Shown here: positions 45,191-57,826 of the stretch, piece after piece
Layout: every line of letters begins with the position of its first letter
How positions within the stretch are numbered: the first letter of the stretch is position 1
NCBI GenBank assembly: GCA_015231955.1
Contig: JADGAN010000035.1
Location: 1-58,319 of the forward strand
Length of the DNA stretch: 58,319 bases
Source: Oligoflexia bacterium
Lineage (GTDB): Bacteria > Bdellovibrionota > Bacteriovoracia > Bacteriovoracales > Bacteriovoracaceae
Direction: 5' to 3'
The notes under the pieces: model-generated
The model's database searches: none
What the model was told of the DNA's origin: nothing
Seen by the model: only the letters and a program-made list of their open reading frames with translations
Translations under genes and position numbers: made by a program

Positions 45191-48100
45191 ATGAAACCAA
45201 TCCCATGGATGCTCTTTTTTTCTATCCTCATGATGTTGCTGGCCGCCTCTTGTGCTAAAGATAGGCCCTCCGAATTTCCTCAAGGAGTAAATAGTGACGA
45301 CTTCCTCTCGATTGCCGACTTTGATAAGCAAACATTTAATGTTGAAACTAAAGCTCGCGTAAAAGAGAGCAAACTCTCCAAGGCCGAAACATTAGTAATT
45401 GAAGACCCCTCCATTATTAACAATCTTCATGAAGTCGAGTATCAAAGCGACTCTTCCCTCTTAAAAAACGTTCATCTGATGGCAAAAGAAAATGCTCACT
45501 ATACCATCCAGTATCGTTTGACCAATAAGTATTTAAAGATCTACAAGATTGCCAGCAAAGAAGAGCTCCCTTCCAGCGAAATTGCACTGTCCTCTACCAA
45601 TAGTGATGGCACCCTCTCCGTTCCACTGATGGGATATGAGGTCTCCTACTATAAAATCGAAAAGCAAAAAGATGGCAATGGTGCGGAAACTCACGTCCTC
45701 ATGCCGGTTTCAGCAGAGAGCAAAAATAAAGCAAGCCACTTTAAATTTGATATAAGCGCTCCTATCGATTTTAAATTTCTCAACAAGAGCGATGTCTATC
45801 CGCAAAACTTCTTCGATGGTGAGTGGTTTTATACCGCAACCTTGGTATCGGCACCCACTTCTCAAAATGAGATTATTGGTTACGAATTAGGATATGATAA
45901 CAAATTTGATACCGCCTCTAGGATCAAATTTGTAAAATACCACAACAACATTAAAGCATTAAACTTAAATGCTGATAGTAAAATTGATCGTCATAATGCC
46001 AATGATGAACTCGATACTGTGCTTACCATTCCCGCCACCTGGTTAAACTATGCGGTCAAGAAAAGTGCTTTCGAAGAAGAGCTGGAAGAGGAAAGCATTG
46101 GTGACGACTCCCTACGAAGCGTTCCTTGGAACCAACGCGATTTCATGAAGCTCGATTTTGCTGCCTCCGATGCTAAAATTTTATCAAAAGGGACTTACAA
46201 ACTTGACAAGGTTCTTATCGCTAACAATTTTTTTAGTTTCACTTTATACGATGACACCTCCAAGGTGAAGGTCTCCTTTGCCTTTAAAAAAGCACATGCT
46301 GCTAGTGCCAAGGCCAAAACCTATTTTGAAAAAGATCAAAAACTCTTTGGATACTTCTACACGCAAAAGAAGATGATCGAGAATATTCACAATGGACGCA
46401 AGGAATACGCCGAAGAGAACACCTTCATCAACCGCTTTATCCCTAGCGATGGTGTAATCAAATACCACTTCTCCAAACAAACTCCGGACTTCATCAGACC
46501 TGCGGTCAGAAGCGCCCTACAAGCTTGGAATGAGACGTTTAAGGCAGCAGGAACCGGCATCAGCATCGTGCTTGACGAGAGTAAAGATGTCGATCTTGGG
46601 GATCTTCGCTACAACATTATCAACATCATCGATTCCGTCGGAGTAGACACTCTCTTTGGCTATGGTCCCTCTATCGCCGATAGCGAATCGGGCGAGATTG
46701 TCTCTGCCACCGCCAACGTCTACATTAGCAGTATTCGTTACTATATCGTTGGCTTTCTTCGTAACTACGTTGTCTATAAATTAGGGCTTGCCAAAGGCCT
46801 CACCTCCTTTAACCTACTTCACGCCAAACCCAACACGGCGGCGCTTATTTCCACCTTTGATCACGACAACAAATACACCAAGGAGTTGATGCTGGCAGTG
46901 CAGGCGGATAAAAATGTTTCTCAAAAATTAAAAACGCTGCTCAAAGAGAGCTCCGAATATGCACAGGCAAAACCTAGATTACGCTCTACGGGACATTGTA
47001 ATTTTCAGGCATCCAATGCCGACATCATTGCAACATTGGAAGAGGCGATTAAAGGCGATACCCCTTGCAAAGCACTTCCTGCTTACATCGACTCGATCCT
47101 GCTTGCTAACAAAGATCGACTCTCCTCCGACCCTCGCACCTACATTTACGAACAAGAACTCGACGTTCTCACTGCTTGCGCCAACTACCTCCTGCCTTCA
47201 CAAACGCTAGAAACGCTGATTCACGAGATTGGACACAACTTCGGTCTGCGCCATAACTTTAAAGGCTCTTACGATAAAGAGAACTTCCAAGGCCCGCTTG
47301 CTCGCTCCTCAACGGTTATGGAGTACCTAAGTGATGGCGTACGCTCTTTGCAAAAACCAGGTCCCTACGATGTGGCCGCGATTCGCTTTGCTTATGCCGG
47401 AACAGTAGAGCTTGGCAATAAAGAATCCAGCTTGCTCTACCTGAACCCTAAACAAAGCATTGAAGAAAACTTAAATGCCTATAATAAATCTTTAGGCGAA
47501 AAGAGTAAGTCAAAAATCGCTCTCCACCCCTACTACTACTGTACCGATGAACATGTCAGTGCAGGCCTCGATCCTATGTGCGCCCGTTTTGATACAGGAA
47601 CCACACCTAAAGAGGTGGTTCAAAGTATTATCGACCTCTATATGGGCCTACACCAGATGTATAGCGATAAATTTGATCGTAAAAAACATTCTGACCTCTT
47701 TATGTCTAAATTCAATCGTGTCTTTATTCCTCTCAAAGTGATCTATAACCAATGGAGATACTTGCTGGCCTCCTATCTCCCCCATGAGAATCGTTATCTG
47801 CATAAGTTCACCAAGGTTGATGACTATAAAAAAATGTTGGCCACTGCTCGTGCCCAAAATCCAAGCAACGCTTGGTCCGATAAAATCACCGCCTATAATG
47901 ATGCTTCCGAACTTATCTTTGATTTCTTCTTAAAACTTGCAATCACTCCTAACCGTTACTGCATCCTCGAAGAAAATGGCCTAAGCAAACCAGTCGAATT
48001 CAAACTTATTCGCGAACAGATATTCAAAGAGCATTTCATCACCATCAATAGTTGCCTGGATCCGCAAGCAATCGCCCTCTTGGATAAAAAGCAGATCAGC

Positions 48101-49189
48101 GTAAAAGATGAAATTGGAAACTACTTTGATGACCACAAAGAGCTACTGGATGTGGAAGAGCATGAGCGCCCCTTTAAGTACGTTGGCAATGGCAATGACC
48201 GCGAACTGGCACTCTTGATGTTGTCACTGCGTGCACCTCTCACTGCCTATGGCAGCGACCATCGCTTCTATCCTAACTTCTACGATGAACCAACTTTCAA
48301 AACTGCCGCCATTGAATCGCTCTATAACCGCCTACTAAACGGAGCAACCATCCCGGAGTTTACAGCGGCCACCAGCGACCCCTACAATCAATACAACGTT
48401 ACTTTCCGTTGGCTCAACTTCTCTACAGAAAGCACTAAGCAAATTTACTTTCCTAAATTTTCTCACGAGCGCGATCTTCTAGAGTCGATTATGCTTAATA
48501 TCTTTCAAGGATTACTCATTCCTGGTCTTTCCGAGGTCTCTTCCCAGCGTATGGCCCCCTTTAAACCCATCGCTATCGATCCCTCCAATGCCGACAAAGT
48601 ACCAAGTCACTTTGAGTCCATCTCTCTCAATAGTCGTATGCTAGTAGCATCCAATAGTGCCAATCCCTTTGTCTATCACCTACTCCAGGCCTATAATGCC
48701 AACCAGTACTACAACATTTTAAAGACTTCTACGCTTCCACGCATTCCTGGTGAAGCACTTTTTGAAGGTGTGATTCCGCTACAAACGGTGGCCTCTGCAG
48801 AAGAGTTTAAAAAACTCACCCTCAAAGCTTTCATGGCAATGATGGAGAACAATTTAAAGCATTTTGAAAAAGAGAGTCTCTACACCGTCATCCTTGGTAA
48901 ACTCTTTCTTGCGGACAATCTCAGTACAGAAATTGCTCTCTACGAAGAGTACAAAGGAGAGGGTGAAACACTCCTCAAAGAAAAAGGGGAGCAACTGCTA
49001 GTGGAGTACGCTAAAGATCAATTCACCACGGAGGCGATCGCCCAAAGCGCTCTCCTTAGCGAAAACATGAAGCCACTCCATATCCAATCCACCAATGCCT
49101 ACAAAATGCGCATGCTGAACTATCTCCGCAACAAAGATGAGTTCGATGCCCGCGACGAAGTGATCTTCCAATACCTCTCAAACTTCTAA
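45191..49189 (+). CDS. Lipoprotein metzincin-type metalloprotease, 1332 aa
   Basis: The lipobox is LLAASC followed by AKDRP, nearly the same as in the 2169-residue paralogue. The zinc site HEIGHNFGLRHN starts at H678, with E679, H682 and H688. The Met-turn candidate is SSTVMEYLSDG. Other parts shared with the paralogue are GDLRYNI/GDLRYNV, GYGPSIADSESGEI versus GYGPTVRDPLTGEI, GPYDVAAIRFAYA versus GKYDIAALKYAYA, and YYCTDEHV versus YEYCTDEHV. It lacks the paralogue's long coiled-coil tail. AAGGAG precedes the ATG. It follows the barrel 2 gene and overlaps the convergent adenosyltransferase by 12 bases. Confidence 0.9.
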   Translation: MKPIPWMLFFSILMMLLAASCAKDRPSEFPQGVNSDDFLSIADFDKQTFNVETKARVKESKLSKAETLVIEDPSIINNLHEVEYQSDSSLLKNVHLMAKENAHYTIQYRLTNKYLKIYKIASKEELPSSEIALSSTNSDGTLSVPLMGYEVSYYKIEKQKDGNGAETHVLMPVSAESKNKASHFKFDISAPIDFKFLNKSDVYPQNFFDGEWFYTATLVSAPTSQNEIIGYELGYDNKFDTASRIKFVKYHNNIKALNLNADSKIDRHNANDELDTVLTIPATWLNYAVKKSAFEEELEEESIGDDSLRSVPWNQRDFMKLDFAASDAKILSKGTYKLDKVLIANNFFSFTLYDDTSKVKVSFAFKKAHAASAKAKTYFEKDQKLFGYFYTQKKMIENIHNGRKEYAEENTFINRFIPSDGVIKYHFSKQTPDFIRPAVRSALQAWNETFKAAGTGISIVLDESKDVDLGDLRYNIINIIDSVGVDTLFGYGPSIADSESGEIVSATANVYISSIRYYIVGFLRNYVVYKLGLAKGLTSFNLLHAKPNTAALISTFDHDNKYTKELMLAVQADKNVSQKLKTLLKESSEYAQAKPRLRSTGHCNFQASNADIIATLEEAIKGDTPCKALPAYIDSILLANKDRLSSDPRTYIYEQELDVLTACANYLLPSQTLETLIHEIGHNFGLRHNFKGSYDKENFQGPLARSSTVMEYLSDGVRSLQKPGPYDVAAIRFAYAGTVELGNKESSLLYLNPKQSIEENLNAYNKSLGEKSKSKIALHPYYYCTDEHVSAGLDPMCARFDTGTTPKEVVQSIIDLYMGLHQMYSDKFDRKKHSDLFMSKFNRVFIPLKVIYNQWRYLLASYLPHENRYLHKFTKVDDYKKMLATARAQNPSNAWSDKITAYNDASELIFDFFLKLAITPNRYCILEENGLSKPVEFKLIREQIFKEHFITINSCLDPQAIALLDKKQISVKDEIGNYFDDHKELLDVEEHERPFKYVGNGNDRELALLMLSLRAPLTAYGSDHRFYPNFYDEPTFKTAAIESLYNRLLNGATIPEFTAATSDPYNQYNVTFRWLNFSTESTKQIYFPKFSHERDLLESIMLNIFQGLLIPGLSEVSSQRMAPFKPIAIDPSNADKVPSHFESISLNSRMLVASNSANPFVYHLLQAYNANQYYNILKTSTLPRIPGEALFEGVIPLQTVASAEEFKKLTLKAFMAMMENNLKHFEKESLYTVILGKLFLADNLSTEIALYEEYKGEGETLLKEKGEQLLVEYAKDQFTTEAIAQSALLSENMKPLHIQSTNAYKMRMLNYLRNKDEFDARDEVIFQYLSNF

Positions 49190-49747
49190 AACGTAGAACG
49201 TGTCCGGAGCGCCTGCTTTGAAATTGAGATAGCGGGCAAACGTGAATAAGTAGTCAGATAAGCGGTTGATAAATTTTTCGGTGTTGGCCGGGATTTCATC
49301 TTCAGAGGCGCTCTCTTTAAAGTTTAAGAGCCTGCGCTCTGCTCGCCTGCATACACTTCGACACACTTGTGCAATCGATGCACAAGAGGTTCCCGTCGGT
49401 ACAATAAATTTAGAAAGAGTCGGCAACTCTTCGTCCATCTGATCAATCTGCTTCTCCAAATACACCACATCCTCTTCTTGCAAGGAGACAAGTTTGAATT
49501 TATGGCGATCTTGAGATTCGCAAGCAAGCATGGAACAAAGGTTGAAAATTTTATGCTGGATAAACACAAGCGCAGCAACATCAACCAAGAGGCGCTGATC
49601 TGCAATCGAAGCACGCAGCAGACCAATATGGGAATTTAACTCGTCAAGTGTGCCGTAACTTTCGACACGAAGATCATTTTTTTTTACTCGATGGCCGCTT
49701 AGTAAACCTGTAGTGCCGCTATCACCGGCCTTGGTATAGATACTCAT
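49178..49747 (-). CDS. PduO-type cob(I)alamin adenosyltransferase
   Basis: This 189-residue protein starts with YTKAGDSGTTGLLSGHRVKKND and RVESYGTLDELNSHIGLLRA, the ATP-binding and substrate signatures of PduO/MMAB adenosyltransferases. The second half has CRSVCRRAERRLL and NRLSDYLFTFARYLN. It transfers the 5'-deoxyadenosyl group from ATP to cob(I)alamin to make adenosylcobalamin. No B12-dependent enzyme is in the window. GAAGGA precedes the ATG. Confidence 0.93.
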   Translation of the reverse strand: MSIYTKAGDSGTTGLLSGHRVKKNDLRVESYGTLDELNSHIGLLRASIADQRLLVDVAALVFIQHKIFNLCSMLACESQDRHKFKLVSLQEEDVVYLEKQIDQMDEELPTLSKFIVPTGTSCASIAQVCRSVCRRAERRLLNFKESASEDEIPANTEKFINRLSDYLFTFARYLNFKAGAPDTFYVLEV

Positions 49748-49866: not shown

Positions 49867-52032
49867 TCACTCTTCATTATCAAAAGGACACTCTTTTCCT
49901 GATATCTTAAGCCAATCAAATTTTGGTAACTCGTGGGGATCCTCTCCAGTAGCAAGAGTTAGCCTTTTATATCCTTGCTGATGTAATATTTTTGCAAATT
50001 CATCTCCTGGCATTTTATTATTTCCTAAATTTTTATCCAAATAAATTTCTGTATGCTCTTTTGCAACCTTGCTTTGATATTGATAAAACTCCTCTGTAGA
50101 AGAGAGTGTCTTTATATTTAATTTACTTTTTTTCGCAGCAAACTCCCATCCTTTGCGCAGCCATTCATCGTCTTCAATATAAAGATAGTCATAATATTCT
50201 CCAGAGATTTCAGCGGTGTTTGCTGGTTTTTCAGAATTGCTACAATTTTCAGGAATCTCGAACTCAATAGGCACAAAGCCTGCTAGCATTTTGGGCATTA
50301 GGCGCACTCCTAATCTATCACACCTATCACGAATTTTTTCATTCTCATAATGTGATGTTACCAATATTGCATTATTCAATTTTAATTCTTCCAACAAATC
50401 TAACCCCGATTCTTTAAAATCAAGTAACTCAAAATCACTAAGATATAAAATTTTATCATATGCATACTTATGATTTTCCACCCATTCCCTAAAGGCGCTA
50501 GGTGTTGATAGATGGAACACTTTAATTTCATATTTATCAATAGAGTTTTCTTTTAACCTATTATCCCATGTATGATGAATTCCCTGATCATCATCAAGGA
50601 TAACTACTGCTTGTTTTGGTGATGGCCATAAAGAAAGTTTGGAAATAAACCATTTAGGGGTCTCAGCTTTAGGCAATATAATGGTAATTGTAGTTCCTTT
50701 GGCCACTTCACTCGTAATATTGATTTTTCCTCCCCATTTTTCTATTGTCGTATGTGCATGATGTAAGCCCAGCCCATTTCCAGACTCTGCATTATTCTCT
50801 TTTCCATAGCTCATTCCTTCGGCGCCTAAGCTTTCAAGGATTTCTTTTGGTATTCCTCTTCCATTATCTTCAACCAGAATATTGATTGATTTTTCATCTG
50901 GTGATAATAGTTTAATCGTTATTTTCCCTCTATAATTACTCAATGCTTCGGCAGCATTGTTTATGAGATTGCTTAATAGTCGTTTCATCTCTCGTAAATT
51001 AATCTTAGCAAACAACCCATAGCTCTGTTTATCGTAGATATCCCCTTCTATAGAAAGGTTCAAGTGCGCACGAAAGTTTAAACGTTTTTCAGTGATAATC
51101 TCTTCTATTATACTCGATAGCAGTTCTGTTCTCATAATAGCATCATCGGCATTAGTATGTGGCTGTTTGTTTTTGATCAATAAACTATTGGCAATATCTT
51201 GAATTCTGTCTATTTGTTGTCGAATCGATATTCTGGTCTCCTCGGGTAACTCTTTTAAATTCTGGCGAATAATCATATTCAATGCTGCAAGGGGAGAACG
51301 CACATCATGAGAAACTTGTCTGGCCATTTTCGAAAGGGCCATAGCTTTTTCGCTAGATATTTCTATTGATTTTTTTTCCTCTATCAAAGCAGAATAGCTG
51401 TTGACCGCTTCAATTAATTTGTTGATTTCAAATAATTTTTCATTTCCAGATCTTAATGGAGTTATGTTAATAAAGCTATCAGTCATTGCCGACAATGGAT
51501 CCATAATCTCCTTTTTTATTTTGATATAAATAAACAGAAATAAAAAAATAACGAATAAGATAAAAAGCGACAAAGTAAACGAATAAAAAGTAAAAAGAGG
51601 AATTAAAAAATTTTTCTTCAACGAATGATCAAAGTATACTGTGAGTTTGCTTGGAAAATAATTTTGTTGATCACTGAATTCAATGATATGCGGTTTATAT
51701 ATTTTAAAGAATGATTCATCGTTCATAGGTCCTTCAAGCAAACTAAAACCATTATCAAGAGTAAGATGAATCTTATCAACCATTAGCTGATCTTTTAATA
51801 TTTTCAGATGATCTTGAAGAGAAATATAATCTTTTAATGCTATTTCATTTAAAAAGTCATTGAAATTTAATTTCACGATATTATTAATTCTATCAATATA
51901 GACATTCTCGATTCTTTTCACTTGGTGCAGCGTCAGTACAGCAAACAACAATACAACAACAAGCAACATTCCACTAAGAACTTTTATGAAATTTTCTGCT
52001 AAATATTTTTTGATGCTTTTTCTATTATTCAT
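49867..52032 (-). CDS. Hybrid histidine kinase with two divergent receivers
   Basis: This is a 721-residue kinase. TM1 is about 15-36, a periplasmic part of about 110 residues follows, and TM2 is about 143-171. The H-box is QVSHDVRSPLAAL with H242. The ATPase has N359 (LINNAAEAL), G1 LVEDNGRGIP and G2 GNGLGLHHAHT. The C-terminus then holds two receiver-like domains. The first (about 475-590) has DDD 480-482, D533, T559 and K581. The second (about 615-718) has E620/D621, D666, T695 and K713. Both are unusual in sequence. The start overlaps the binding-protein stop as ATGA, so the periplasmic protein is the likely ligand sensor for this kinase, as in LuxP/LuxQ. Confidence 0.88.
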   Translation of the reverse strand: MNNRKSIKKYLAENFIKVLSGMLLVVVLLFAVLTLHQVKRIENVYIDRINNIVKLNFNDFLNEIALKDYISLQDHLKILKDQLMVDKIHLTLDNGFSLLEGPMNDESFFKIYKPHIIEFSDQQNYFPSKLTVYFDHSLKKNFLIPLFTFYSFTLSLFILFVIFLFLFIYIKIKKEIMDPLSAMTDSFINITPLRSGNEKLFEINKLIEAVNSYSALIEEKKSIEISSEKAMALSKMARQVSHDVRSPLAALNMIIRQNLKELPEETRISIRQQIDRIQDIANSLLIKNKQPHTNADDAIMRTELLSSIIEEIITEKRLNFRAHLNLSIEGDIYDKQSYGLFAKINLREMKRLLSNLINNAAEALSNYRGKITIKLLSPDEKSINILVEDNGRGIPKEILESLGAEGMSYGKENNAESGNGLGLHHAHTTIEKWGGKINITSEVAKGTTITIILPKAETPKWFISKLSLWPSPKQAVVILDDDQGIHHTWDNRLKENSIDKYEIKVFHLSTPSAFREWVENHKYAYDKILYLSDFELLDFKESGLDLLEELKLNNAILVTSHYENEKIRDRCDRLGVRLMPKMLAGFVPIEFEIPENCSNSEKPANTAEISGEYYDYLYIEDDEWLRKGWEFAAKKSKLNIKTLSSTEEFYQYQSKVAKEHTEIYLDKNLGNNKMPGDEFAKILHQQGYKRLTLATGEDPHELPKFDWLKISGKECPFDNEE

Positions 52033-53174
52033 AAATCATTCCCCCAAGAATTATTGGTCTCGATTTTAAATTTCCTCTTGAAGGAATTATTTCCAAACAG
52101 AGTCAAATGACCTGATGTTGAAGCAAAGGGTGCGGTTTTTTTAAGACAAACAAAAACATCCCAGTTTTTAACATCTGTACCACATTTATGCACTAAGGCA
52201 TTTGCTAACAACACAGACTCAAAAGAAAAAGCACTGAGATCAGAAGGCAGTATACTGTATTTCCTTGTAAATTCATCCATGAAAAATTTATTTATATAGA
52301 AGCTTGAAGTATAATCATAGATTCGCGGGATGATGACATCGATTTTAAATTTCTCGATCAATCCTTTGATCGTAGTAGAATGAGTCCCCCATGAATCAGT
52401 TGCAATATATTTTTTAACCAGATGGTTCCTAAATGCTTGAGTTATGAATTTTGCGACATCAAGTTCATACAGCGGAACAAATATATGAGTGAAATCATAT
52501 TTGCTGATTTCGGAAAAAATATTTCCTCCAAACAAACTACCCTCTTCATGACGAATAATGATTTCTTTCGTTATTCGTCCTCCTAATTTTTCAAATTCTA
52601 TCCTGAAATTTTTTGCCATATTCACACTGTAGCTATTATTTTTAAGATAGACAGACAAAACATTTCTCGCACCTTTTTTGTATGCCTCTTGCGCCATTTT
52701 TTGAGCAATTAGATCATTTGTAGGATACAGTAAAATAATTTTTTTATTATTAACAAGATCCCTAGAAGACGCAGTTGGAGAGATCAGCACTGAATTGTTC
52801 TCCCTCAAAGCATCAGATGCCATCAGTGCTTGATCAGAAAGCCCAAGACCGATATATAAATGTATGCCATTTTGAGAATGTTTTTTAATAAGTCCTGGAG
52901 TATTGGCAACAGTCTTATCAATATCGATTGTTGTAAATTTAAAACAATTATTTCGAGAGTTGCTGTTCAAGTAAATTTTTCCAATTTCAATTCCCCTCGA
53001 GATTTCTTCCCCAAATATCCTATTGGCCTTACTCGAATAATTTTTAAATTCCCCTATCAATCCAACAGAGATACATTCTTTTCCCTTATCATAAGGTGCT
53101 TTCGAAAAGGATACAGGAATTCCCACAAACAAAGCGACAATAAACAAACAAACAATATTTTTTTCAAAAAACAT
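52029..53174 (-). CDS. Periplasmic ligand-binding protein (type I, Leu/Ile/Val-like)
   Basis: This 381-residue protein has a signal peptide (VCLFIVALFVGIPVSFS) and no lipobox. The fold is the type I periplasmic-binding (Peripla_BP_6) one: ISVGLIGEFKNY, SRGIEIGKIYLN, VLISPTASSRDLVNNKK, YKKGARNVLSVYLKNN, FTHIFVPLYELDVAKFI and IATDSWG. Family members bind amino acids or small amides. No transporter permease or ATPase is nearby; instead it is coupled to a histidine kinase gene. It therefore probably serves signal perception rather than uptake. The ligand could be the product of the upstream radical SAM enzyme. Confidence 0.87.
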   Translation of the reverse strand: MFFEKNIVCLFIVALFVGIPVSFSKAPYDKGKECISVGLIGEFKNYSSKANRIFGEEISRGIEIGKIYLNSNSRNNCFKFTTIDIDKTVANTPGLIKKHSQNGIHLYIGLGLSDQALMASDALRENNSVLISPTASSRDLVNNKKIILLYPTNDLIAQKMAQEAYKKGARNVLSVYLKNNSYSVNMAKNFRIEFEKLGGRITKEIIIRHEEGSLFGGNIFSEISKYDFTHIFVPLYELDVAKFITQAFRNHLVKKYIATDSWGTHSTTIKGLIEKFKIDVIIPRIYDYTSSFYINKFFMDEFTRKYSILPSDLSAFSFESVLLANALVHKCGTDVKNWDVFVCLKKTAPFASTSGHLTLFGNNSFKRKFKIETNNSWGNDL

Positions 53175-53200
53175 AACAAGATTATCCTTATTTATTCAAA

Positions 53201-53842
53201 TTAAACAATTACCTCTCCCAAGCTCCAAAAACCTGTAATTAAGAAGATTAAAGCGAAGAAGATATTAATTTTGATCATTAGGTTTGATTTATTTTCTAGG
53301 TACGACAATATTTTTTCCCCAAAAACTGCATAAATCATGTAACACAGGTAGGCAATTGCAAAAATTGGTAAAAACGTTTGTAACAAAATCAAGATGCCAA
53401 AATCGCCATTTTTAGTAATAAACTGTGGGAAAATAGATACAAAAAACAAAACAGCTTTGGGATTAAACAAAGCAAGAAGCAATCCACGTAAAAAAAAAGC
53501 CTTTTTGTTACCATCTTTATTTTCGTTAGCGTCTTTAGATATTTTAATGAATTTACGTGCACTAAAAATTTGATAAGAAAAATAAAACAATACCAGAGCA
53601 CCAACGACTTGAATACTTTCAACAACTATGGTCTGAGATGAGAAATTGAGTATTCCTGAAAAAACAAGAAAAGCAATAATTGCTTGTGCAAGTGATGCCG
53701 TAGCATTTCCAAAAGCCGCCATCGAATAATTTATTCGATTTCCATTAATCCCATAATACAATGCTTGCGACATGCTCGGCCCTGGGATCAACGATACTGT
53801 TGCAATAACAAATGAATACCATAGCAAATAGTATAAACTCAT
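53201..53842 (-). CDS. LysE/RhtB-family small-molecule exporter
   Basis: This 213-residue membrane protein has about six spans and the family start SFVIATVSLIPGPSMSQALYYG (the PGP motif) followed by GNATASLAQAIIAF and GLLLALFNPKAVLFFVSIFPQF. Such proteins export amino acids and derivatives, including homoserine lactone. The start overlaps the radical SAM gene as ATGA, which suggests it exports that enzyme's product. AAGGAG precedes the ATG. Confidence 0.92.
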   Translation of the reverse strand: MSLYYLLWYSFVIATVSLIPGPSMSQALYYGINGNRINYSMAAFGNATASLAQAIIAFLVFSGILNFSSQTIVVESIQVVGALVLFYFSYQIFSARKFIKISKDANENKDGNKKAFFLRGLLLALFNPKAVLFFVSIFPQFITKNGDFGILILLQTFLPIFAIAYLCYMIYAVFGEKILSYLENKSNLMIKINIFFALIFLITGFWSLGEVIV

Positions 53843-55347
53843 AATATTTTCTCCTTGTTAAAATTTCTACCTAAATTATTTTTAGCTGATAAAAAAAGAT
53901 TTTTAATCTCTTTGTCCAAAGCTCCTCTTTCACCAGGATTTTTAAGCAGTCTCACGATATGCCCCATAAATATTTCCCCGAGGATCGTTAATGAGTAATG
54001 ATCCTCGGATTCATAAATCAATCCTTCATCAATTAATTGGCGAAACACAACATCTTGCTGACTTGCAATTGCATTGTTTTCAATAAATTCATTATAAACT
54101 TTTTTACTTATTCCATTGGAATTCAAGGGAAATGACCACAAGGCCAGATCATTTTGTTGTTCCATATATGTTTTGCCTAAATCTATTCCATATCCGCCTT
54201 TTTTAATATCTATAATCCATTCTTCTGGATCCCTGATATTTTCAAAACGGCACCCAGGTAATGATCCGATCGAACTTGCTCCAAGGGCAAAAAGGCAATC
54301 ATCATAATTAAAAGAGCCTATGCATTCTCTTCCTGAAATAATATTAAAATTTTTTTCTATAATTTTTCCTGGATTCACATAAGTATTGGTTCCATTACGA
54401 ACCCACCCTTTTTGCCGCATCAGTAGTATAGTGTGTAATCTAAATAAAGCGGAATCTTCATGTGAAGGTAATTTCTTGATTGTGCCGTATAATATTTGCT
54501 GAAGTAAACCTGATGCATGCGCTGGGTTTAAAAGATAGCTACTAATAGAATTAACAACAGGATGTTCGATAAAAAAAGCATGATCTTTTAGCACTTTTCG
54601 CAAAGTATGTTCTGGAAATCCTGTTATAAGATCAATATTTATAACAGGAATTTTTTTATTTAAATAATATAAAATTTCATTCAATTTGCTTGTTAATGGA
54701 GGAAGCTTCATTGCTTTTCTGGTTTCTGAGTCCATTGTTTGTATTCCCATGCTAATTCTGGAAACCTGACTATCAAACAATGCATCCAAGAAATCTAAGT
54801 CCACCGTAGGCAATGAGAATTCAACAGAGATTTCAGTGTTATTACCATCTAGACAAGACGTTTTTTTGATTTGACTAATTAGATGTCGAATATTTTCTGC
54901 ACCTATAATATTTGGACTTCCTCCTCCTATATGAATAGAACCAATTATTGGTCGTTTATTGGGGAATACATCAAGAAAGCGATTGTACTGGTCGATTAAG
55001 CACTCTATGTAATCGTCATAAGAGTAAGTACAAAGATCCTCACCCTTGTTAAAGGCACAAAATAAACATTTTTGTTTGCAGAATGGTATATGGATATAAA
55101 TATGTATCGGTCTTTGAGAAAATTTCAAATTCTGCACATGCTGGGAAAACTCCTGTTGACTCTGTGGTTTTTTGTTATTTCTACTCACAGTCCAATAATC
55201 AATAGTATTCCTAGCAACCGTAGTGAATCTGGTTCCCATTATATTTTTCTTTACTTCATCACCATTATAGATGCCTTGATCGATATAATTAAAATCAAGA
55301 CAATCTAAATCACTTAAGCTCGGTTGTTCCGTAATTATTTTTTTCAT
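53839..55347 (-). CDS. HemN-like radical SAM enzyme
   Basis: This protein of about 502 residues has the iron-sulfur motif CKQKCLFC (C95, C99, C102 counted from the TTG at 55362), followed by IGSIHIGGGSPNI and the SAM-binding strand region ISVEFSLPTVD. RISMGIQTMD, INIDLITGFPEHT and a HemN C-terminal-like domain (FALGASSIGSLPG to the end) complete the pattern. Known relatives include oxygen-independent coproporphyrinogen dehydrogenase, HemW, anaerobic haem-degrading ChuW/HutW and class C methyltransferases or cyclopropanases. Context with an exporter and a sensor pair suggests small-molecule synthesis rather than haem biosynthesis. ATG 55347 is preferred. Confidence 0.87.
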   Translation of the reverse strand: MKKIITEQPSLSDLDCLDFNYIDQGIYNGDEVKKNIMGTRFTTVARNTIDYWTVSRNNKKPQSQQEFSQHVQNLKFSQRPIHIYIHIPFCKQKCLFCAFNKGEDLCTYSYDDYIECLIDQYNRFLDVFPNKRPIIGSIHIGGGSPNIIGAENIRHLISQIKKTSCLDGNNTEISVEFSLPTVDLDFLDALFDSQVSRISMGIQTMDSETRKAMKLPPLTSKLNEILYYLNKKIPVINIDLITGFPEHTLRKVLKDHAFFIEHPVVNSISSYLLNPAHASGLLQQILYGTIKKLPSHEDSALFRLHTILLMRQKGWVRNGTNTYVNPGKIIEKNFNIISGRECIGSFNYDDCLFALGASSIGSLPGCRFENIRDPEEWIIDIKKGGYGIDLGKTYMEQQNDLALWSFPLNSNGISKKVYNEFIENNAIASQQDVVFRQLIDEGLIYESEDHYSLTILGEIFMGHIVRLLKNPGERGALDKEIKNLFLSAKNNLGRNFNKEKIL

Positions 55348-55368
55348 TCTAAAAACATCCAAAATAAA

Positions 55369-55587
55369 TCATAGATTTGAACAAAAAACACGGTCTAATG
55401 TTTTTTTATAATTATCCCAATCGCTATTAATATTTTCTAGATTTTTATCAAATCCTTGCATACAGTTTTTTATATCGTCAGCATCGATGCAATTATTATT
55501 ACTATCGCCTAGCATATCTAGAATTATTTTCAGTGTGCGAACACTGTTTTTTAAATTATGTCTTAGATTTTTATCACTAGCATTCAT
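55369..55587 (-). CDS. 72-aa helical protein resembling a phosphoacceptor helix
   Basis: The 72-residue protein begins MNASDKNLRHNLKNSVRTLK. RHNLKNSVRTLKIILDML looks like the H-box helix of a histidine kinase (compare SHDVRSPLAALNMII in the kinase of this operon), with H10 as the candidate phosphoacceptor. A second helix follows, as in a DHp or HPt hairpin, without an ATPase domain. It may be a phosphotransfer or dimerisation partner for the regulator encoded just upstream. AAGGAG lies 5 bases before ATG 55587. It is too short for certainty. Confidence 0.65.
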   Translation of the reverse strand: MNASDKNLRHNLKNSVRTLKIILDMLGDSNNNCIDADDIKNCMQGFDKNLENINSDWDNYKKTLDRVFCSNL

Positions 55588-55627
55588 ACTTTCTCCTTGA
55601 TTAAAACTCAATAAATCGCTTTTGTGT

Positions 55628-56941
55628 TTAGATTTCTATCTTTTCTAGCTTGTATAAATCTTGAACTTTTTTCATAATCGCATAGTATTTAGTTCTTGAG
55701 ATATTCAATTGCTTGTATACTTTATAAGGGATCATTTCGTTTTCAGTATAAAGTTTGTACGCCAGTTCAACTTCAATACGTTCAATGAGCCCTGATAACC
55801 CAACTTTTCTTACTATTGCCATATGTTCTTCAGTAAGAATGCTTTTGACATTTTTTATATTTGCAAAAGACTTGCTAGAGCGAACGTGAATTGGCAGGTG
55901 TTCGAAATCAATATGCGGTTGATTCCTGCTAGATAACTGTTTTAGTACATCTACAAGCTCTGTAATATTTCCGGGCCAAAGATATTCAGTTAAAACAGAC
56001 ATCGCTTGATTGCTGATTTTAATAGGCAAGAATAGTTTTTCTACGAAATATTTAGTGAGAGCAGGGATATCATTAAGTCGCTCTCTGAGAGGAGGGATTC
56101 TTAAACTTATTCCAGACAATTTATTATACAGTGATAAGTCAAATAGGCCATCATGAATAAATCTCTGAATATCATCACAGCATGATATTATTGGTCTAAG
56201 AGAATTCTCTTTGTTCAGATATTGAATAAAATTTTTCTGCATTAAAACAGGCATGTGATTAATGTTAGCAATAAAAAACGTTCCAATTTCTGGACTGTTA
56301 TGCAACTCAAACAATTTAGATTCAATTAACTCACAGGATACTATAGCGCAGTCTAGTGTGACAAAATTATCTAATGATAAAAAATCCATTAAATGAATAA
56401 GCTCTGCTAATTTTTTCTTACCAGTACCTGCCTCACCTACAATTAATAGAGGTCTATTACTTGATATCCTATATTTCAGCGCTTTTATTTCATTGATAAG
56501 AGGGATGCTTTTTGTAATATACTCTTCTTGAAAAAAACATGGAGTAAACTCTCGGCTTACTTTCTCTGATCTATCTTTTGCTATAAACTTTAATACATAC
56601 TCTGTTTGATCTTTCGTCAGAAAATGATCACATCCAATTTTATAAGCTTTCTTTATATATGACTCATCACTGTGATCTGTGAGTATAATGGAAAACATTT
56701 GCTTCTCTTTAGCTGTTTTTAGAATATTAAAACCGCAATCTTTTCCATGTAAGTTAATATCGATAACAACCAAAGCGTAATAATTTTCTTCTAGATAAAA
56801 TTTAGCATCTTGTTCTGTAGATGCCTCTTGGACATGAAAATATGGCGCAAGTAGTTTGATAATGAATTTTCTAAAAAACTCATTATCTTCAACAACCAAT
56901 GCCTTATGCTTTTTGCTAGCACTATTCAAATACAACCTCAT
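55628..56941 (-). CDS. NtrC-like response regulator, degenerate AAA+ domain
   Basis: This 437-residue regulator has a receiver (10-125) with E18/D19, D61 (VVIDINLHG), T88 and K110. Its AAA+ domain (about 145-355) keeps Walker A GEAGTGKK and the LRIPPLRERLNDIP region. The GAFTGA loop is missing: sequence jumps from SKLFELHN to SPEIG. Walker B reads FFIANINHMP (normally LFLDEI), and the sensor-II Arg of GNVREL is Thr (GNITELV). The C-terminus has a Fis-like helix-turn-helix (YKQLNISRTKYYAIM). It can bind DNA and be phosphorylated but should not activate sigma-54. It is the first gene of the six-gene operon. Confidence 0.88.
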   Translation of the reverse strand: MRLYLNSASKKHKALVVEDNEFFRKFIIKLLAPYFHVQEASTEQDAKFYLEENYYALVVIDINLHGKDCGFNILKTAKEKQMFSIILTDHSDESYIKKAYKIGCDHFLTKDQTEYVLKFIAKDRSEKVSREFTPCFFQEEYITKSIPLINEIKALKYRISSNRPLLIVGEAGTGKKKLAELIHLMDFLSLDNFVTLDCAIVSCELIESKLFELHNSPEIGTFFIANINHMPVLMQKNFIQYLNKENSLRPIISCCDDIQRFIHDGLFDLSLYNKLSGISLRIPPLRERLNDIPALTKYFVEKLFLPIKISNQAMSVLTEYLWPGNITELVDVLKQLSSRNQPHIDFEHLPIHVRSSKSFANIKNVKSILTEEHMAIVRKVGLSGLIERIEVELAYKLYTENEMIPYKVYKQLNISRTKYYAIMKKVQDLYKLEKIEI

Positions 56942-57229: not shown

Positions 57230-57826
57230 TTATAGATGCGGAAATAAGGGTAGGATTGACCGTTCTTTAACTCTCTTATAGGGAAGAGTAGCCGATTCGA
57301 TCACTTCACGCAATCGATGGATTGAATTTCCTACACCAATTCTACTGGCAATGGCCGGAGGAATTCCCCATGGATATTTCTCTGCTTGAGTTATAGAGTT
57401 CATGGTATTTTCAAAAGAGGATTTGTAACCACACTGATTGGCAACATAGCAAATTGTCCGAATAATCTCTCGTGCACTTGTTTTGACTGCACTAAAAAAG
57501 CGCTGGCCCCAGAAACTTCCTTTGCGTCCAAAGCATTTGTTAAAGTAAAGAGCAAGTTTAGAGGCCAGAAATTGCATGGCATGAGAAAGACGTCCGCAAA
57601 CGCTTACCAGCAGGAACAGATGCAGGTGATTTTTTTCCAGTGAAAATTCAAAAATAAAGACTGAATAGCGCTTCTCTACCTCATCAATTAGGGTACGAAG
57701 ATAACGTAATGACTGATACCCTTGCATGGAAATTTTCAGATGGGTTTTAAGCACGACGTGCATTGGATCCTTTGAAGAGAGTTCTCTTTTTTTATGAGAT
57801 GGTGTTTTCGATTTTTTATTTCTCAT
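57230..57826 (-). CDS. REP-associated-type HUH (Y1) transposase
   Basis: This 198-residue protein of the IS200-like Y1 transposase/RAYT family shows PMHVVLKTHLK near the start, the metal-binding HUH motif NHLHLF (H67, H69), GSFWGQRFF and the helix EIIRTICYVANQCGY with Y127 as catalytic tyrosine. Length and motif order are complete, with no sign of decay. RAYTs act on short palindromic DNA, cutting single strands through a 5'-phosphotyrosine link. They are usually single-copy and chromosomal. AAGGTAGG lies 5 bases before the ATG. The palindromes at 172-259 and 8952-9072 or the hairpins at 57995-58056 may be its substrates. Confidence 0.85.
   Translation of the reverse strand: MRNKKSKTPSHKKRELSSKDPMHVVLKTHLKISMQGYQSLRYLRTLIDEVEKRYSVFIFEFSLEKNHLHLFLLVSVCGRLSHAMQFLASKLALYFNKCFGRKGSFWGQRFFSAVKTSAREIIRTICYVANQCGYKSSFENTMNSITQAEKYPWGIPPAIASRIGVGNSIHRLREVIESATLPYKRVKERSILPLFPHL

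Follow-up and report, generated by a model that had tools for sequence, protein, structure and literature searches.

The window analysed here is the whole of contig JADGAN010000035.1, 58,319 bases from the 5.6 Mb draft genome of an Oligoflexia bacterium (family Bacteriovoracaceae) that is the sole member of its genus within the genome collection searched. Its minus strand carries, between 49867 and 56941, an operon of six genes encoding an NtrC-type response regulator, a small histidine-box protein, a HemN/HutW-like radical SAM enzyme, a LysE/RhtB-family exporter, a periplasmic binding protein and a hybrid histidine kinase (Table 1). All six open reading frames (ORFs) lie where a preliminary description, made from the sequence, had placed them, and ORF calls, Pfam and NCBIfam bear out the gene order: the regulator matches Response_reg, Sigma54_activ and AAA_lid, the enzyme Radical_SAM (HutW/HemN-like, under every curated cut-off), the exporter LysE, the binding protein Peripla_BP_6/ANF_receptor and the kinase HATPase_c, with weak HisKA and weak Response_reg. 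The small protein has no family match in Pfam; its start, ATG 55587, is preceded by AAGGAG. The genes are tightly packed, as had been reported. ATGA overlaps join the radical SAM to the LysE gene and the binding-protein to the kinase gene; the gaps are 26 nt between the LysE and binding-protein genes, 6 nt (from the TTG start) or 21 nt (from ATG 55347) between the small and radical SAM genes, and 40 nt between the regulator and small genes. (The two overlapping pairs, formerly called fused in translation, are overlapping, coupled genes and not single polypeptides.) No hidden precursor peptide was found within the operon, its intergenic space being too short.

Table 1. Genes of the operon and the kinase segment used as a search query.
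Feature	Coordinates	Strand	Description
NtrC-type response regulator	55628..56941	-	437 aa; receiver Asp D61; Walker A intact (GEAGTGK); GAFTGA loop deleted and Walker B acids replaced; helix-turn-helix at the C-terminus
Histidine-box protein	55369..55587	-	72 aa; RHNLKNS contains His10; two-helix hairpin by prediction; candidate phosphotransfer protein linking the kinase receiver to the regulator
HemN/HutW-like radical SAM enzyme	53839..55362	-	507 aa from TTG; ATG 55347 possible; CX3CX2C at C95/C99/C102; GGGSP; without HemN RYTSYP, DHFA; putative signal synthase
LysE/RhtB-family exporter	53201..53842	-	213 aa; six predicted membrane spans; putative signal exporter
LivJ-fold (Peripla_BP_6) binding protein	52029..53174	-	381 aa; secreted; putative ligand receptor
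Hybrid histidine kinase	49867..52032	-	721 aa; two membrane spans; ~115 aa periplasmic loop; H-box H242; N-box N359; receiver 1 D533; receiver 2 D666
Double-receiver kinase tail	49870..50658	-	most distinctive chassis part; query for finding sibling modules

This operon is one copy of a repeated module, composed of an NtrC-type regulator, a histidine-box protein of 60-90 residues, a variable cargo, a periplasmic binding protein and a double-receiver hybrid kinase. The first sign of repetition was a second locus in the same genome (on C19) with homologues of both binding protein and regulator, and a homology search of the genome collection brings the module kinase loci of this genome to nine: the window, C19 (L164), C27 (L174), C26 twice (L175, L215), C63 (L176), C37 (L217), C36 (L214) and C70 (L216). 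The kinase tail finds matches in 65 of 129 genomes of the family at E<=1e-8 (a threshold that also lets in ordinary receivers) and in 81 of 369 genomes of the phylum at E<=1e-18, and further modules are present in other families of the phylum. At 20 of the 49 kinase loci read in the window's family the regulator lies in the same operon; many of the regulator-less loci end at a contig edge, and some are truly without a regulator. Packing is dense throughout: 166 of the 196 operon junctions in module loci are at most 30 nt, 48 being 4-nt overlaps. Because the same order recurs many times in its own and in related genomes, the gene order of the window is more than chance.

The preliminary description had named as its check a repeated association of kinase, binding protein, exporter and radical SAM gene in which no transport permease takes part. 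Such an association is found at L164 (in order: regulator, histidine-box protein, EamA-radical SAM fusion, pyridoxal phosphate (PLP) decarboxylase, binding protein, kinase), and the wider chassis is found again with a great variety of synthases and exporters. What that description missed is that the operon belongs to a large family, many of whose members resemble modified-peptide circuits. Fused genes occur in several modules, joining an EamA exporter to a radical SAM enzyme (L164:9517-11208), and an APC permease (L165:2315-4669) or EamA protein (L242:3975-5906) to the binding protein, or an 11-span transporter to an SBP_bac_5 protein (L279:9211-11781).

The chassis is highly conserved in the residues that a phosphorelay requires. 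Among the 49 module kinases the phospho-His and the N-box Asn are present in all, the Asp of the first receiver in 48 (L165 has no aligned first receiver) and that of the second in 49. The window kinase has the H-box His, N-box Asn, ATPase domain (HATPase_c 2.8e-21) and receiver Asp of a hybrid histidine kinase; its second receiver is weak in Pfam (cREC_REC E 0.035), yet D666 is invariant in the 49 relatives. The kinases closest to it (L214, L215, L221) carry different sensors, that of L215 being accompanied by an Aminotran_4 enzyme and a DUF819 membrane protein. (In L214 and L216 the same double-receiver tail goes with at least seven membrane spans, which replace the binding-protein-coupled sensor.)

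The small protein, earlier described as phosphoacceptor-like, has a HisKA-like box (consensus HDLK) whose His is kept in 23 of 24 module copies, L242 having Cys instead; the copy of L176 fell outside the ORF filter and was found by eye, and module L183 has two such proteins after its regulator (L183:9595-10384). AlphaFold models the window copy as a two-helix hairpin (predicted local distance difference test, pLDDT, 88), and alignment with the dimerisation domain of HK853 starts with model residue 1 against residue 251, so that His10 would coincide with the phospho-His H260 if the alignment is ungapped there. The regulator, as previously noted, is degenerate: it departs from the sigma-54 activators of the NtrC family in that its GAFTGA loop is deleted and its Walker B acids are replaced. 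Most sibling regulators retain both motifs and look like sigma-54 activators; loss is seen again in L176 (both motifs) and L217 (in part). Since the best relative of the window regulator outside its own genome (L170, ~40% identity) is canonical, the loss is probably derived. Sigma-54 promoters ahead of the modules are not enriched over random pieces, single good sites being found only at L183 and L214.

In contrast to this fixed chassis, the cargo is variable. Pfam analysis of 60 module proteins finds synthesis and tailoring enzymes together with transporters. The enzymes include radical SAM proteins of several kinds, B12-radical SAM with methyltransferase, YcaO, a LanM-type DUF4135 protein, PLP decarboxylase, aminotransferases, a LOG-type phosphoribohydrolase with PfkB kinase, PNP_UDP_1, adenosine deaminase, a thiamine pyrophosphate (TPP) enzyme and fatty acid desaturase, besides acetyltransferase, cupin, haem-oxygenase-like protein and GGACT (SDR assignments were made by similarity and sequence motif only). 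The transporters are LysE, EamA, MFS, AzlC and APC permeases, mostly exporter families. No ABC permease or ATPase is found in Pfam among these 60 proteins or in the window operon. YcaO scores above the Pfam gathering score in L217, L231 and L232, and that of L234 was assigned through its similarity to L231.

Some cargo invites separate remark. The LOG-type phosphoribohydrolase and PfkB kinase of L175 (L175:10275-11878) hint at a nucleoside- or cytokinin-like ligand. A pair consisting of a B12-radical SAM protein and a methyltransferase-like protein of ~237 residues lies inside a module in G024 (L183:10712-12786), and a similar-looking pair lies beside another module in the window's genome (L164:14430-16468), as if moved, the likeness being judged by N-terminal sequence and size only. 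Beside three peptide-type modules lie divergent minus-strand operons (L171:5757-8427, L172:4817-8297, L174:5133-8433). Each encodes a radical SAM protein, which has SPASM in L171 and L174, together with an exporter of MFS or ABC type; those of L172 and L174 also encode a secreted protein of 191 residues. These operons are possibly regulated output.

The strongest argument for self-sensing is that makers, export routes and receptors change together: where the makers are of peptide type, so are the receptors, and export is by leader, whereas makers of small molecules are accompanied by LivJ-type receptors and by transporters. The binding proteins of 38 modules were classed as class I (Peripla_BP_6 or ABC_sub_bind; 15 modules) or SBP_bac_5-like (23 modules; those of L231, L232 and L234, with no Pfam hit where tested, were placed here by size, position and profile similarity via L289). 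A small protein with a Sec signal is found in none of the 15 class I modules (the lone automatic match, an AzlD-like membrane protein in L230, was not counted) and in 16 of the 23 SBP_bac_5-like ones (15 automatically, L231 by eye; Fisher p 2e-5). None was counted in L218, L222 and L227, whose loci are cut or masked. Multi-span transporters show the opposite distribution, 10/15 in class I against 4/23 (Fisher p 0.005; a 4-span protein several genes upstream in L226 was excluded), and the four (L172, L217, L233, L239) are exactly the untruncated SBP_bac_5-like modules that lack the small protein. No module holds both (Fisher p 3e-5). YcaO or LanM follows the same division, with 0/15 in class I and 10/23 in the other class (Fisher p 0.003), and a YcaO, LanM-like or radical SAM gene is present in 16 of the 23 SBP_bac_5-like modules. 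In siblings of the window, then, though not in the window itself, a leader-bearing small protein, a maturase and a peptide-binding-type receptor stand in one operon, as expected of a module for a ribosomally synthesised and post-translationally modified peptide (RiPP).

On the kinase tree the class of binding protein switches at least nine times, from which it follows that parts have been exchanged on a fixed chassis. For example, L175, with its LOG and PfkB cargo and ABC_sub_bind-type receptor, nests with full support among the YcaO/peptide modules L174 and L220. The pattern is seen again in other families of the phylum, at loci fetched after it had been stated: L274, L281, L287 and L289 combine a Sec-signal protein, YcaO or radical SAM and SBP_bac_5, L282 combines a LanM-like protein with SBP_bac_5, L276 conforms as well, and the class I module L286 has an 8-span transporter with its binding protein. 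Several of the loci from other families are cut short or unclear (L273, L288).

The window operon is, we consider, probably a self-contained self-sensing circuit, one of a family of modules with a fixed chassis and jointly replaced parts for synthesis, export and binding. The HemN-like radical SAM enzyme would make or modify a small, probably amino-acid-like molecule and the LysE/RhtB protein would export it; the LivJ-fold protein would capture it in the periplasm and, bound to the periplasmic loop of the kinase, alter kinase activity. Phosphate would pass from His242 to a receiver Asp (533 or 666), thence to His10 of the two-helix protein and on to Asp61 of the regulator (a His-Asp-His-Asp relay through kinase, receiver, small protein and regulator), and the regulator would control target genes, perhaps the operon itself. 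In many siblings the signal would instead be a modified peptide exported by Sec; YcaO, radical SAM or LanM-like enzymes would carry out the modification, and the peptide-binding-type protein would bind the peptide. An amino-acid-like ligand is proposed for the window because the fold of the binding protein and the substrates of LysE/RhtB proteins, which export amino acids and their derivatives, agree. The exporter is a convincing family member (LysE 7.1e-20, 71.7 bits against a gathering score of 25.6; six spans), and the binding protein is LivJ-like (4gnr, Z 35.0, rmsd 2.9, 334 aligned), the solved members among its nearest folds binding amino acids, aromatic acids and amides. The metabolite-signalling circuit of the preliminary description gains support from the recurrence of the module; that the ligand would be the operon's own product is suggested by the matching of cargo to receptor only. 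The chemistry of the ligand, the direction of the relay, the genes regulated and the biological role of the module are likewise proposals.

Several points weigh against self-sensing or limit it. The radical SAM enzyme, LysE protein and binding protein of the window have no close orthologue in any other module, so that its own combination is read by analogy with siblings, L164 above all. The role of the small Sec-signal proteins as putative precursors is read from leader, size and position only, YcaO is below the Pfam gathering score in L174, L220, L226, L235 and L236, no enzyme is visible in the class I module L240, and no exporter in L175, L243 and L246. Since the modules share ancestry, the Fisher p-values come out too small; phylogenetically independent pairs number five, of which two to four run in the expected direction and none in the opposite one, too few for significance. 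Helical hairpins match many unrelated chains, and the fold of the small protein, which alone proves nothing, is used as consistency only. Finally, the window regulator cannot act as a sigma-54 ATPase, and its output may be altered or impaired; given the loss of ATPase motifs in the regulators of the window, L176 and (in part) L217, their output must be sigma-54-independent or altered.

The main rival for the window copy, taken by itself, is a nutrient or detoxification response, in which an external compound (for example from prey) is sensed by the binding protein and kinase, transformed by the radical SAM enzyme and expelled by the exporter, with no self-made signal. LivJ-fold proteins do bind common amino acids and aromatic acids, class I modules include catabolism-like enzymes (adenosine deaminase in L228, PNP_UDP_1 in L243, M14/AstE in L244), and APC permeases could import. 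Relatives of the binding protein serve ABC importers elsewhere (e.g. L166, L181), which had been named beforehand as a finding that would count against signalling, but those of the modules adjoin kinases, no ABC importer is present and the transporters are mostly of exporter families. Moreover, a nutrient response hardly fits the siblings in which the same chassis goes with a small Sec-signal protein, with maturases for peptides and with a binding protein of the peptide type, and we regard this explanation as unlikely.

Still less likely, in our estimate, is an antibiotic-like cluster under autoinduction, making a weapon or a metallophore-like compound that the binding protein and kinase sense only in order to boost its synthesis, as in lantibiotic autoinduction; this differs from the self-sensing circuit only in the role of the product besides signalling. 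The RiPP-type maturases of siblings fit it, as do the operons with radical SAM protein and exporter adjoining L171, L172 and L174, but the latter resemble outputs more than the signal itself, module cargo is minimal, and no immunity or processing genes were recognised in it.

A haem-related operon, in which the HemN/HutW-like enzyme would act on porphyrin or haem and the remaining genes would respond to haem, is very improbable and indeed nearly excluded. The best curated matches of the enzyme are HutW (134.8 bits) and HemN (110.6 bits), far under their cut-offs of 400 and 325, and its relatives in PDB are HemN (1olt, 1e-21, the closest) and the radical SAM methyltransferase NocN. Homologues mainly associated with haem genes had been named in advance as evidence against signalling; the nearest homologues are indeed HemN-type, but the fit is not clean, since the genome has its own separate HemN (L268), the RYTSYP and DHFA motifs are absent, the operon holds no haem gene and no HemN-like gene occurs in any of the sibling modules examined. 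A haem role for the enzyme is rejected on scores, motifs and context together. No close orthologue of it is found in 96 relatives or in the best 80 loci of the genome collection, the top matches having ~31-33% identity over parts. A chance or decaying juxtaposition of unrelated genes with a dead regulator, to which the lost ATPase motifs and the transposase gene just upstream might point, is very improbable, and for the module as a whole it is refuted: the junctions overlap, the phosphorelay residues are intact and the gene order is repeated in many genomes.

As to neighbouring genes, a REP-associated/IS200-like Y1 transposase is encoded immediately upstream of the operon (57230-57826). A cobalamin adenosyltransferase gene (Cob_adeno_trans 1.7e-54; 49178-49747) lies on the same strand 119 nt downstream of the kinase gene, its end overlapped by an opposite-strand gene (45191-49189) for a lipoprotein-like Met-zincin (DUF4953) protease of 1332 residues.

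The module family suggests that bacteria of this group carry many private self-sensing signal circuits. More broadly, we put at slightly better than even the chance that these form a large exchangeable repertoire, with up to nine copies per genome, in which synthase, export and receptor are swapped as a set on a LuxPQ-LuxU-LuxO-like chassis, including modified-peptide pheromones in a Gram-negative phylum, the window being a radical-SAM, amino-acid-like version. If so, the module would be a general cassette that lets bacteria connect a novel signal to a single relay. It would then be a source of many such signals, among them modified peptides that Gram-negative bacteria perceive outside the cytoplasm, and might underlie the control of populations or of the life cycle in these probably predatory bacteria. 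Matched synthase-receptor pairs would be usable for biosensor work, and recognition of each operon's product by the binding protein encoded with it becomes directly testable. An open-access literature search, with subscription journals mostly outside its scope, returned no published description of such modules, and the papers it found report no such signalling system in these bacteria; the family is apparently undescribed, and its modular, multi-copy and partly peptide-based character is apparently new relative to the Lux-type design.

Several known systems share part of this design. HemN and HutW share with the window synthase CX3CX2C, GGG(S/T)P and the core region; the synthase differs in falling under their cut-offs, in its lost substrate motifs and in the lack of haem context. 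LivJ-type amino-acid binding proteins have the fold of the window protein, whose gene, in contrast, overlaps a kinase gene and is without ABC permease or ATPase. Signals that are, or are associated with, modified peptides and that lie beside maturation genes, as in the siblings, are found in NisRK lantibiotic autoinduction and in Rgg/SHP control of radical SAM peptides (streptide), but these are Gram-positive systems in which the kinase senses the signal directly or a peptide is imported to a receptor inside the cell, with no periplasmic binding protein or NtrC relay. TorT-TorS likewise couples a binding protein to a hybrid kinase, but it senses external trimethylamine N-oxide (TMAO), its kinase has its own histidine phosphotransfer (HPt) domain, and there is no synthase or exporter. 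The LuxP-LuxQ-LuxU-LuxO circuit of Vibrio, which responds to autoinducer 2 (AI-2), consists of a periplasmic binding protein, a hybrid kinase, a small His phosphotransfer protein and an NtrC-family regulator; it has the same layout as the module and senses a self-made molecule, as the module is proposed to do. The components are nevertheless distinct. LuxP belongs to Peripla_BP_4, whereas the window binding protein gives only Peripla_BP_6 and ANF_receptor in Pfam; LuxU is a four-helix HPt protein, whereas the model of the small protein shows a two-helix hairpin and Pfam gives no Hpt match for it; and the window regulator scores 86.5 bits against the LuxO equivalog NF041946 (cut-off 800 bits). 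In the Lux circuit neither LuxS nor an exporter is part of the operon, whereas the module has synthase and exporter built in and swapped between copies, and its kinase has two receivers. In its mode of action the module resembles LuxP-LuxQ-LuxU-LuxO, yet it falls outside those families.

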